From Neisseria meningitidis (GTDB taxonomy: Bacteria; Pseudomonadota; Gammaproteobacteria; Burkholderiales; Neisseriaceae), in contig NZ_LR134525.1 in the NCBI RefSeq assembly GCF_900638555.1, positions 1,798,001 to 1,862,000 of the forward strand: a DNA stretch of 64,000 nt, in the 5' to 3' direction. Shown piece after piece: positions 10,815-16,224 of the stretch; the stretch's first letter is position 1, and every line of letters starts with the position of its first letter. Made by a program: the position numbers and the translations under genes. Under the pieces are notes generated by a model that did not search any database, had not been told where the DNA came from, and worked only from the letters and a program-made list of their open reading frames with translations.

Positions 10815-12236
10815 TTAACCGCGCCGCCAAGTCGTGCCGCCGGCGTTGTCTTCCAAAATGATTTTGTGTTCGTTCAGAAGGTCGCGGATGCGGTCGGATT
10901 CCGCCCAGTTTTTATCGGCGCGCGCCTGTTTCCGCCGGGCGATCAAGTCTTCGATTTCTTCGTTGGAGAGACCGTCTGAAGCCGCGCCGCCTTGCAGGAA
11001 CTCGGTCGGATCGCGTTGCAGCAGTCCGATGATGCCGCCCAAGGCTTTCAGGCAGCCGGCGAGCTGTGCGTCATTGGTTTTGTTCACTTCGCCTGCCAGT
11101 TCGAACAACACGGCAACCGCTTCGACCGTACCAAAATCGTCGTTCATGGCGGCGTAGAAACGGCGGGTGTAGTCGTTGACGTTTTCAGATAAGTCAAACT
11201 CAGCCGCTGGTGTGTTTTTCAATGTAGTGTACAGGCGGGTCAGCGCACCTTTTGCGTCGTCCAAATGTGCGTCGGAGTAATTCAACGGGCTGCGGTAGTG
11301 GGCGCGCAGGATGAAGAAACGCACGACTTCGGGGTCGTATTGTTTCAACACTTCGCGGATAGTGAAGAAGTTGCCCAACGATTTGGACATTTTTTCGCCG
11401 TCCACGCGGATAAAGCCGTTGTGCAACCAGTATTTGACGTGGCTGGCAATGCTTTGACCGTGGTGGGTTTGCGCGTGATGATGGCCGCAGGTATGCCCCG
11501 TCGCGCCGACGCTTTGGGCAATTTCGTTTTCGTGGTGCGGAAACTGCAAATCCGCGCCGCCGCCGTGGATGTCGAAGGTATTGCCGAACAGGTTTTCACT
11601 CATGGCGGAGCATTCAATGTGCCAACCCGGCCGGCCGTTGCCCCAAGGGCTTTCCCACGCCGGCTCGCCTGCTTTCGCCGCTTTCCACAACACAAAATCA
11701 AGCGGATCGCGTTTGAAACCGTCCACTTCCACACGTTCGCCCGCGCGCAGGTCGTCCAATGATTTGCCCGATAATTGTCCGTAAGCGGAAAACTCGCGCA
11801 CGGCGTAGTAAACGTCGCCGTTTGCGGCAGGATAGGCCTTACCGTTTTGAATCAGGGTTTCAATCATGGCAATCATTTGCGGGATGTTTTCCGTTGCCTT
11901 CGGTTCGATGTCCGGACGCAACACGCCCAAAGCATCGGCATCTTCGTGCATCGCCTGAATGAAACGCGCGGTCAGTTCGCCGATAGTCTCGCCGTTTTCA
12001 GCCGCGCGGGCAATGATTTTGTCGTCGATGTCGGTGATGTTGCGCACATAAGTGAGCGGATAACCGCACTCGCGCAACCAGCGGGCAATCATGTCAAACA
12101 CCACCATCACACGGGCATGGCCTAAGTGGCAATAGTCGTAAACAGTCATGCCGCAAACGTACATACGCACGTTTTTAGGGTCGATGGGGGCAAAGGGTTC
12201 TTTTTGGCGGGTAAGGGTGTTGTAGATGGTGGTCAT
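10815..12236 (-). CDS. cysS: Cysteinyl-tRNA synthetase
   Basis: 473 residues, full-length class I synthetase charging tRNA-Cys. It shows the HIGH-type motif ([12 protein letters not shown]), the zinc ligands ([36 protein letters not shown]) and KMSKSLGN. The C-terminal tail carries the insert region and [11 protein letters not shown] anticodon-side helix. The ATG at 12236 is the family start ([13 protein letters not shown]) but has no convincing Shine-Dalgarno sequence. The frame is open upstream through a whole nuclease-like gene to 12914, so a 699-residue fusion could be made. See the adjoining entry. Confidence 0.95.
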
Positions 12237-12914
12237 GGGATTATGGATTAATCTTTGTTGCTCGGATGATAATTTCTGTTCTGTTCCTGTAGATACGGAC
12301 CAAGGAACATTACGTAGTTGCGGATTATTAATATGGCTGATATTTGTGAAAATTGGTTCTGCATAACAGTTTGCAAAATTTTTTGTAAATTCTGATAATT
12401 TAAACTTATCTTTTAATAAGTTTGCTAAATCTGATGACGAGGGATAAAGTTTACTTCTTATACTAGGCATTTCAATATGAAGGACTATTTTTATTTCGTT
12501 ACAATCTAAAGCCAAGCGAGAAAAATCTTTTTCTTCCTGTTTTTCTGCTTTAAATTTAGCAGAAACCAATCCTGCCAATGAATCTCGAATTTTTCTTGCG
12601 ATTAAATATGGTAGGTCAGAAAGTTTTTCATCTATTGATTGGGCATTTGGCTCAAGCCCAAGTCGGTAATAATCTTTAATTTCGATTAGCCAAAGTGTCG
12701 ACTCATGAAGGGCTATTATATCTACACCTGAGCTGCCATTATCGTCATCTACACTTTGATTTATCCCGTTCTTTCCCTTTTCATTTGTATCAATTTTATT
12801 ACGTAAATTACAACTGTTCTGAAAAATTTTATAATGTTCCCATTCGTCATACTTGGTAACGTAATAATCTTCAGGAAAAGCAAAGGTTAATCTCTTTTCT
12901 GTGATTGTAGTCAT
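12237..12914 (-). CDS. PD-(D/E)XK nuclease-like protein, in-frame with cysS without a stop codon
   Basis: 226 codons starting [18 protein letters not shown] (GAGG nine bases upstream), 9 bp after the ATPase gene stop. Residues 61-81 (SSGVDIIAL...LWLIEIKDY) give Asp65, Glu78-x-Lys80 on predicted beta strands, the PD-(D/E)XK restriction-endonuclease core pattern. The remainder is Lys/Glu-rich and unmatched. No stop codon separates it from cysS: after ...EQQRLIHNP the frame runs directly into the synthetase Met. The gene is AT-rich compared with its neighbours, suggesting transfer. Nuclease function is inferred from the motif only. Confidence 0.72.
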
Positions 12915-12923
12915 AGCTTAACC

Positions 12924-13973
12924 TCAAATATTCAGATACCTGTCTGCCTGCATAATGTTTTCATCTAACAATATCAATGTGTTCAAATCATTAATACTGT
13001 TCCCTTGCTCCACTTTTGTTCCATCATCGGAAGCAATCAACGAGAAAAAACGTACAGGTAAATCCGTGTTATTTTCAAGCTTCAAAAGTTCCAATTCTCT
13101 CAATAAGAATAGAGAGTGTGTTGCAATAAAAACCTGAATACCCTGTTGAGATAAAGACCAAATAATACGGGCAGCCATTTTGATCAATTTAGGATTCAGA
13201 TTAGCTTCCGGTTCATCCCAAAATAGATAGCCTTTATCCAGCAATGCCCCTGTTGCGATTAACCGGGCAATCATGACAAATTTCCGCAAACCCTCTGCTA
13301 CCAAAGGTGCTTCAATCTTACCGCCCGTATTTGTCAGCGATAGATAAAACCTTCCTTGTTCTTCAGATACTTTTCCTCCCATCGCGTTCTCAATAGGTTC
13401 GAGCAATTCTCGAATTTTTGTTTCTCTGGGGCCTTTGGCAAGCGGGTGATTTAATTGCATACAGGTATCAAACCAAGTTTCTTCGAAAGGGATGCTTTGG
13501 TTTTGATACAAAGAAGTGAACCAAGGGCAAAGTGTAATTAATTCGCGGCTGGGTAAGAAGATAGGTGTCGGAGTATATTCATTTTCTTTCAATCCGATGC
13601 TTTGAACATTGACTTGCGATGATGAGTTACTGGAAAAATTCAGACTACTATGCGTAGTGCCGTTTTGCAGTTTTAAAACGATTTCCGTACGCCCGCGCCC
13701 CTGCAAACGTTTGCTCAACCTGCCCAAGGAATCGGGACGGAAAACATTCAGTAATTTATCGGCAAAACTTTTTTGCAATTCTGTTTTCAGTAATCTGTTT
13801 TTGGTGTTAGATGTTACTTCTAGCAGGCTGTATAAAATTTTTAACAAATGTGTTTTGCCACAACCGTTTTCGGCAACAATAACATTGAGATTTTCAGAAA
13901 ATTCAAAAGTATCGTTTGGAAGAACGGTAAAGTTTGTCAACTCAAGCGACTGGATATATTGGTTAGATGACAT
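12924..13973 (-). CDS. AAA/ABC-type ATPase (OLD/RecF-like), partner of the nuclease-like gene
   Basis: 349 residues. Walker A AENGCGKT at 34-41; ABC-type signature-like VAEGLRKFVMIARL at 225-238; Walker B YLFWDEPEANLNP at 249-261 with D-loop; H-loop FIATHS at 282-287. This is the AAA_15/AAA_21 architecture seen in many two-gene phage-defence systems (Septu PtuA, AbiL/RloA, retron ATPases), here without a TOPRIM tail. The gene is AT-rich, lies between obg and cysS, and is followed 9 bp later by a PD-(D/E)XK-like gene. Assignment as defence ATPase is inference from domain pairing. Confidence 0.8.
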   Translation of the reverse strand: MSSNQYIQSLELTNFTVLPNDTFEFSENLNVIVAENGCGKTHLLKILYSLLEVTSNTKNRLLKTELQKSFADKLLNVFRPDSLGRLSKRLQGRGRTEIVLKLQNGTTHSSLNFSSNSSSQVNVQSIGLKENEYTPTPIFLPSRELITLCPWFTSLYQNQSIPFEETWFDTCMQLNHPLAKGPRETKIRELLEPIENAMGGKVSEEQGRFYLSLTNTGGKIEAPLVAEGLRKFVMIARLIATGALLDKGYLFWDEPEANLNPKLIKMAARIIWSLSQQGIQVFIATHSLFLLRELELLKLENNTDLPVRFFSLIASDDGTKVEQGNSINDLNTLILLDENIMQADRYLNI

Positions 13974-14055: not shown

Positions 14056-15210
<1,155 letters not shown>

Positions 15211-15484: not shown

Positions 15485-16224
15485 GGGGCTGTCCTAGATA
15501 ACTAGGATAAACTCGGTTTTACTAATTGTTTTAAAATGGAACAAGAACTTTTATCTCACTGTTGTTAAAACGCCATTCGCACTCCTTTAAATACAGCTCA
15601 AAATGCGCTTTGGGAATGCCGTTAAACTTGCGTAAATGACGTTTTGCTTGATTCCAAAAGTTCTCAATTCCATTAATATGGTTTTGTCGTTCAGCAAAAT
15701 GTGTGCTGTGATTGATACGAAAACGAAGTTTCAGCGAAGCTAAAATGGCTAAATTCGCTCACATCTAATACATCATAGCTACGATAACAATCCGTATAAA
15801 CAATACTGTCAGGTTTCACTTGTTCACGGATAATAGGAAATAAAGTAGCGGTTTGAGTATTCGGTACTGTAACCGTATAAACCTTACCATTTCGCTTCAA
15901 AAGACCGAATACGGCGACTTTACCGGCAGCACCGCGACCGCGTTTGCCTTTGCGTTGTCCGCCAAAATAACTTTCATCTGCTTCTACTTCGCCATCAAAC
16001 ATTTCCAAATGCGGACTGTTTTGATAAATAAGTAATCGTAAACGATGAAAATAATAGGCTGCGGTATTTTTATTAACGCCTACTAACTCTGCTGCCGTTC
16101 TTGCAGTTACACCTGCGACAAATAGCTCAATGAGTTTATTTTGTTTATACCGGCTTAGACGACTTTTTCTCATAGGGATAATTCTAACTTAATTTGAATT
16201 TCCCTAGTTATCTAGGACAGCCCC
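15485..16224 (-). mobile_element. IS1016-type insertion sequence (IS1595 family), 740 bp, with 8-bp target duplication
   Basis: Terminal inverted repeats GGGGCTGTCCTAGATAAC... at the left and the complement ending ...GGACAGCCCC at the right. The flanking direct repeat TAAGTTTT (15477-15484 and 16225-16232) is an 8-bp target duplication, as expected for the IS1595 family. It carries one transposase gene on the minus strand, frameshifted. The right end lands 10 bp before the ATG of the cytochrome b561 gene and cuts it off from its promoter. Confidence 0.93.
15531..16173 (-). pseudogene. IS1016 transposase, frameshifted by a 22-bp insertion
   Basis: The N-terminal part (RYKQNKLIELFVAGVTARTAAELVGV helix-turn-helix, then VEADESYFGGQRKGKRGRG with the first catalytic Asp, and IVYTDCYRSYDVL with the second) is intact. 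Compared with the second copy at 37.6 kb, about 22 extra bases lie at 15720-15742 and shift the frame. The frame ends SYQSQHTFC at 15691, and the segment with the third catalytic residue (NHINGIENFWNQAKRHLRKF) is left in another frame. Removing 22 bp gives a 207-codon frame. The copy should not make active transposase. Confidence 0.88.

Follow-up and report, generated by a model that had tools for sequence, protein, structure and literature searches.

The stretch of DNA studied here, called the window below, comprises 64,000 nucleotides of the Neisseria meningitidis assembly GCF_900638555.1 (contig NZ_LR134525.1, forward-strand positions 1,798,001 to 1,862,000). On its minus strand, positions 10815–12914 form a single open frame of 699 codons, in which a nuclease gene runs without a stop codon into cysS, the gene of the cysteinyl-tRNA synthetase (CysRS). 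The first-pass annotation, made from the letters of the window alone, had reported this unbroken frame from 12914 into CysS, and we were able to confirm it both in the window and at the same site in the assembly. In order, the frame encodes a nuclease domain of the HEC-02A family (residues 1–213, 12276–12914), a linker of 13 codons (residues 214–226, 12237–12275) and the CysS half (residues 227–699, 10815–12236). The first methionine of CysS, residue 227, is encoded by the ATG at 12236, and a start there would give a protein of 473 residues. The CysS half is a full-length CysRS (TIGR00435, 567.8 bits vs a cut-off of 340), which differs from other members of that family by its N-terminal extension of 226 residues carrying the nuclease. 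No second CysS was found in the assembly, where all other matches are weak and short. The nuclease half is AT-rich, with a GC fraction of about 0.34 vs 0.53–0.57 across cysS.

Directly upstream on the same strand lies an open frame for an AAA/ABC-type ATPase of 349 residues (12924–13973). Its stop codon TGA (12924–12926) overlaps the GAGG Shine–Dalgarno sequence of the nuclease start (12922–12925, minus strand), which stands 7 nt ahead of the nuclease ATG and gives a duplex of −6.3 kcal/mol; from the ATPase stop to the nuclease start there are only 9 nt.

The HEC-02 Gene Pair

Both genes match the HEC-02 models of PADLOC, the nuclease as HEC-02A (E value 3.9e-34) and the ATPase as HEC-02B (8.7e-146), and they share with their relatives the order, ATPase before nuclease, and the tight junction. 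In Pfam, the ATPase is recognized above the cut-off as AAA_15 and AAA_21, while the nuclease gives only a sub-threshold match to NERD. Residues D65, E78 and K80 are invariant in all 22 aligned rows, of which P0121, P0123 and P0124 are 84–97 % identical to the window's nuclease and the other 18 are 33–68 % identical. We take this D65...E78-x-K80 motif to be the PD-(D/E)xK signature, so that the catalytic residues would be present. A structural model of the nuclease alone (predicted local distance difference test score, pLDDT, 74.5) loses confidence from residue 212 and resembles restriction-type nucleases only at middling scores, among unrelated rows. The nuclease profile run against solved structures returned one row, a ribosomal protein at an E value of 0.54, which we regard as chance. 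Among plasmids, the nuclease found two distant matches (27 %), and among phages no match at 1e-5.

The ATPase also cross-matches the PADLOC models of AriA from PARIS (3.5e-18) and GajA from Gabija (1.6e-12), far more weakly than HEC-02B. TOPRIM domains are found in AriB and GajA. The effector at this locus is different, namely a small PD-(D/E)xK-type protein. Judged from the candidate listing in PADLOC and from the neighbourhood, HEC-02 is probably an antiphage defence system. Our literature searches yielded no paper on the fusion or on HEC-02; PMC10855318 contains the bare word HEC once, and the term is absent from the main text of the PADLOC article (PMC8565338).

Both halves of the fusion begin with MTTI, as the first-pass annotation had pointed out. 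Among the 22 aligned HEC-02A rows, however, eight start with these four residues (the window, P0121, P0122, P0124, P0127, P0128, P0136 and P0138); we therefore consider this a coincidence and dismissed the idea of a duplicated start.

Natural End of the Nuclease and Probable Loss of Its Stop Codon

To locate the end of the nuclease we analyzed HEC-02A loci from other genomes; a pattern search had found 94 relatives, of which the best 80 were used. In 78 of these loci the ATPase gene lies directly upstream of the nuclease, and the other two lie at contig starts. In 65 loci the nuclease frame has 164–181 residues; the longer frames are extended at the N-terminus. None of the 80 reaches more than 45 codons beyond its match to the window's nuclease and none runs into the downstream gene, in contrast to the window's nuclease, which continues into CysS. 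Interruptions are present in the HEC-02A loci L128 and L165, and L152 is truncated at the end of its contig. With 62 % identity, P0122 is the nearest homologue that occurs as a free protein; it stops where the window's nuclease has residue 213. From these comparisons the natural end of the nuclease appears to lie near residues 207–213 and not at 226. A separate protein of 226 residues, which the first-pass annotation had named as an observation that would speak against its reading, cannot be released from this frame by ordinary termination, because there is no stop.

The linker occupies the position in which an intergenic leader of cysS would be expected. The simplest reading is therefore that the nuclease lost its stop codon and that the short leader probably became the 13-codon linker. 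Shuffled linkers stay open in 0.43 of cases, which puts the probability of a join that is both in frame and free of stops at about 0.14; the fusion event itself thus needs no selection. In the model of the nuclease alone, pLDDT is <50 over residues 212–220 and 222–226. A model of the whole fusion is mostly confident for the CysS half from about residue 231 onwards, but not for the linker. The latter model was built from rows of the fusion and of CysS only, which left its nuclease half unusable (pLDDT mostly <50) and is the reason why the nuclease was modelled alone.

Recurrence of the Fusion

A database search with the nuclease half, restricted to proteins of fusion length (384–1223 residues), gave 219 matches. 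Among the 120 that were listed, 119 have 699 residues and one has 704; added up, their contig counts give 1186, of which 503 come from P0076. The named copies belong to Neisseria meningitidis. This recurrence excludes a sequencing artefact: the first-pass annotation had allowed that an error of sequencing or assembly might mask a stop codon near 12240, and in view of these proteins and contigs we rejected that explanation, whose chances are negligible. The named entries label the 699-residue product as cysteinyl-tRNA synthetase or cysteine–tRNA ligase. The nuclease half is hence concealed by the annotation.

The commonest form of the nuclease (residues 1–213) is present in 48 of the 119 proteins of 699 residues and is paired there with 46 CysS forms, in a list that is ordered by nuclease similarity and thus biased when nuclease and CysS variation are compared. 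Such a pattern is as expected if recombination carries the module into different cysS alleles, or alternatively if the CysS half simply varies faster.

We also asked how the frame compares with other CysS frames. The longest among the other 42 full-length Neisseria CysS frames has 579 residues. In a survey of the phylum (299 genomes, 268 with a match), long frames among the matches listed have 1142 (G336), 817 (G207) and 617 residues (G082); a frame of 546 residues (G115) was viewed as well. The three longest lie in GC-rich DNA (0.65–0.66). The extension in G336 is antisense to a frame that looks RecQ-like by eye, and those of G207 and G082 show no familiar domain by eye. We treated these three as chance long frames.

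The obg–cysS Interval as a Cassette Hotspot

The other flank of the cassette, outside the fusion, is the GTPase gene at 14056–15210 (minus strand), which we take to be obg/cgtA. To place the cassette in context, 45 Neisseria loci were oriented on cysS, comparing species and not strains; obg was in reach upstream of cysS in 43 of them (by tblastn), the window included. In these 43 loci (from the set L045–L089) the interval between the two genes measures 147–3599 bp, and 7 intervals contain no open reading frame (ORF) of at least 60 residues. The ORFs of at least 90 residues fall into 39 families, some surely spurious. We scanned 20 of these families, partly picked by eye, and 16 gave Pfam matches. 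Thirteen of the 16 are of restriction-modification, SRA, Abi or toxin type: cytosine and adenine methyltransferases, HaeII-, BsuBI/PstI-, DpnI- and MutH-type nucleases, SRA, Abi_2, Zeta and ParE. The remaining three matched DUF6996/DUF6997, EcsC and Lipase_3. The cargo genes are mostly co-oriented with cysS, and in 15 of the 43 intervals a co-oriented ORF of at least 60 residues stops no more than 50 nt from the cysS start codon, so that cassette swaps could change the expression of cysS.

The site fits the concept of the minimal mobile element introduced by Saunders and Snyder, as described in the accessible parts of PMC3082526 and PMC3898611. The likeness lies in two conserved flanks, in whole-gene cassettes that differ between them, and in a cassette without an integrase. 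Indeed, besides ATPase and nuclease the window's interval holds only overlapping opposite-strand ORFs of 60 and 138 residues, and no gene for transposition or integration was seen among its ORFs, these two being unscanned. What differs is the inner boundary: at this site the cassette abuts the flanking gene, and in the window it merges with it. A list of such sites is reportedly given in Snyder 2007, and the obg–cysS site may already be included there. It may also be one of the islands 25, 27 and 59, the three of this type, two of them with restriction-modification genes, that appear in the accessible part of PMC8627216. A word search of the available text found neither cysteinyl nor obg in PMC3082526, no cysteinyl in PMC3898611, and neither cysS nor obg in PMC1538595, PMC8627216 and PMC5383966; in the available part of PMC3338715, cysS stands only in a table.

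The ATPase itself (E value 1e-20) was detected in 2 of 46 Neisseria genomes, the window's and G014, both times between obg and cysS. In G014 (locus L085; genome 85 % complete) this second HEC-02 module occupies the 1.65 kb before cysS, and both of its genes are split between frames, which may reflect decay or assembly noise. Its ATPase is 68–75 % identical to that of the window, and its nuclease ends in a stop codon that stands in frame one codon before the cysS ATG.

With this second module in view one can ask whether the fusion has any consequence at all. HEC-02 might be expressed little or not at all and CysRS made normally from 12236, with the open frame passively hitchhiking. The low GC content of the acquired cassette, the frequency with which shuffled linkers stay open and the split frames of the only other HEC-02 found in Neisseria speak for such an inconsequential join. 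We nevertheless hold it to be distinctly unlikely, because both halves are kept in 119 distinct proteins of 699 residues, in which changes recur at 5 of 206 positions of the nuclease vs 48 of 473 positions of CysS (again in the nuclease-ranked and hence biased list), and because the catalytic motif and the Shine–Dalgarno sequence of the nuclease are retained in the window.

Start of CysS and Dependence on the Cassette

The first-pass annotation had noted that the ATG at 12236 lacks a visible Shine–Dalgarno sequence and had read this as a sign that the essential gene depends on the module. The observation itself holds, as the best duplex at 12236 reaches only −1.1 kcal/mol vs −6.3 kcal/mol at the nuclease start. 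The conclusion drawn from it does not. In the 45 Neisseria loci the best duplexes at the cysS start range from −4.2 to +2.9 kcal/mol, and 43 of them do not fall below −3.0 kcal/mol; the exceptions are L051 and L080, both at −4.2 kcal/mol. Ranked among these cysS starts only, the window's start has the 16th strongest duplex, and its region is the 26th most structured. The dinucleotide CC stands directly ahead of the cysS ATG in 26 of the 45, the window included. Weak starts are thus the norm of the genus for cysS, and by these comparisons the start at 12236 is as good as that norm. It follows that translation of CysS probably still begins at 12236 as well. The choice between a true fusion and an internal start, as it had been put, was consequently too sharp: a nuclease of defence type is indeed fused in frame with an essential gene, and both modes can operate together.

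We also looked for remnants of the native cysS leader in the last 75 nt before 12236 and found no convincing similarity to the leaders of the relatives (44 comparisons, smallest shuffle p 0.025), so that a leader retained in the linker region was discarded. The scan of the interval between obg and cysS returned no terminator-like site on this strand, and promoter-like sites are not clearly above chance. Transcription of cysS therefore probably runs through the cassette. Because no native leader is recognizable before 12236, a dependence of cysS on the module is likely at the level of the RNA; at the level of the protein it is unproven.

This bears on the suggestion of the first-pass annotation that coupling a defence effector to cysS makes its loss costly, in the manner of an addiction. 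Most CysRS would then be made as the 699-residue protein, stop codons and frameshifts in the nuclease would be counter-selected, and the defence gene would be kept. The strong duplex at the nuclease start next to the weak one at CysS, the missing native leader and the single CysS gene of the assembly speak for this reading. Furthermore, a protein search at 124–395 residues gave no close relative of the window's nuclease that is both free and full-length, and a search with the nuclease tail gave no protein of 215–682 residues sharing it, although the latter is weak evidence, since gene callers may simply pick 12236. Against it we weigh the genus-wide weakness of cysS starts and the chance of about 0.14 for an open join. 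Two nuclease types near the window's are moreover truncated, P0121 (56 members represented) and P0124 (which looks like a frameshift), with contig ends or assembly faults as possible causes. Homologous recombination could presumably also replace the cassette together with cysS, which would remove the cost of losing the module. Altogether the evidence on selection for the fused state is thin; addiction is neither shown nor excluded, the fused join could be neutral, and we rate a selected, addiction-like fusion as rather unlikely.

The DNA downstream of P0121 and P0124 would offer a natural test of internal initiation. In the accessible part of PMC4176332 the aminoacyl-tRNA synthetase genes of gonococcus MS11 were all scored essential. 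If the truncated types possess an intact cysS, the internal start must therefore suffice.

Proposed Explanation

Taking the open frame, its recurrence in the database, the family matches, the hotspot across species and the weak cysS starts of the relatives as direct observations, we propose the following. A two-gene HEC-02 cassette of AAA ATPase and PD-(D/E)xK-type nuclease occupies a hotspot of the minimal mobile element type that is flanked by obg and cysS. The inner edge of the cassette adjoins the first codon of cysS, and the stop codon of the nuclease would have been lost. The nuclease would be expressed by coupling to the stop of the ATPase, and ribosomes finishing it would continue via the 13 codons of the former leader into CysS. 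Since the frame has no stop to free the nuclease, its complete product would be the nuclease–CysRS of 699 residues. Normal CysRS of 473 residues would also be made from 12236, as in the relatives with equally weak cysS starts, and the tethered CysRS would have to be active or at least tolerated. The gene fusion at this defence hotspot is real and recurrent, and we consider it fairly probable that the nuclease is made only as nuclease–CysRS, accompanied by ordinary CysRS from its own start.

Should the 699-residue protein be produced, an essential tRNA synthetase would be linked to a predicted defence nuclease in many sequenced meningococci, and nature would have set up an experiment there on the way in which defence genes become tied to core genes. 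More generally, the obg–cysS site shows cassettes that sit immediately beside the start codon of an essential gene. Addiction and a functional tether are both testable readings. In the latter, CysRS or its tRNA would position or restrain a CysRS-bound nuclease effector, activation of the ATPase upon phage infection would hit tRNA or stop the charging of cysteine, and addiction to the essential gene would keep the arrangement in place; we regard this as a long shot.

Further Observations

A distant paralogue of the ATPase, 29 % identical to the HEC-02B protein, is encoded outside the window at G000:C1:1227630–1228544 (L206). Sequences that we take to be neisserial uptake sequences are present in this DNA. 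Just upstream of obg, in a low-GC stretch at 15691–16173 of the window (minus strand), there is furthermore an ORF of 160 residues that looks transposase-like by eye.
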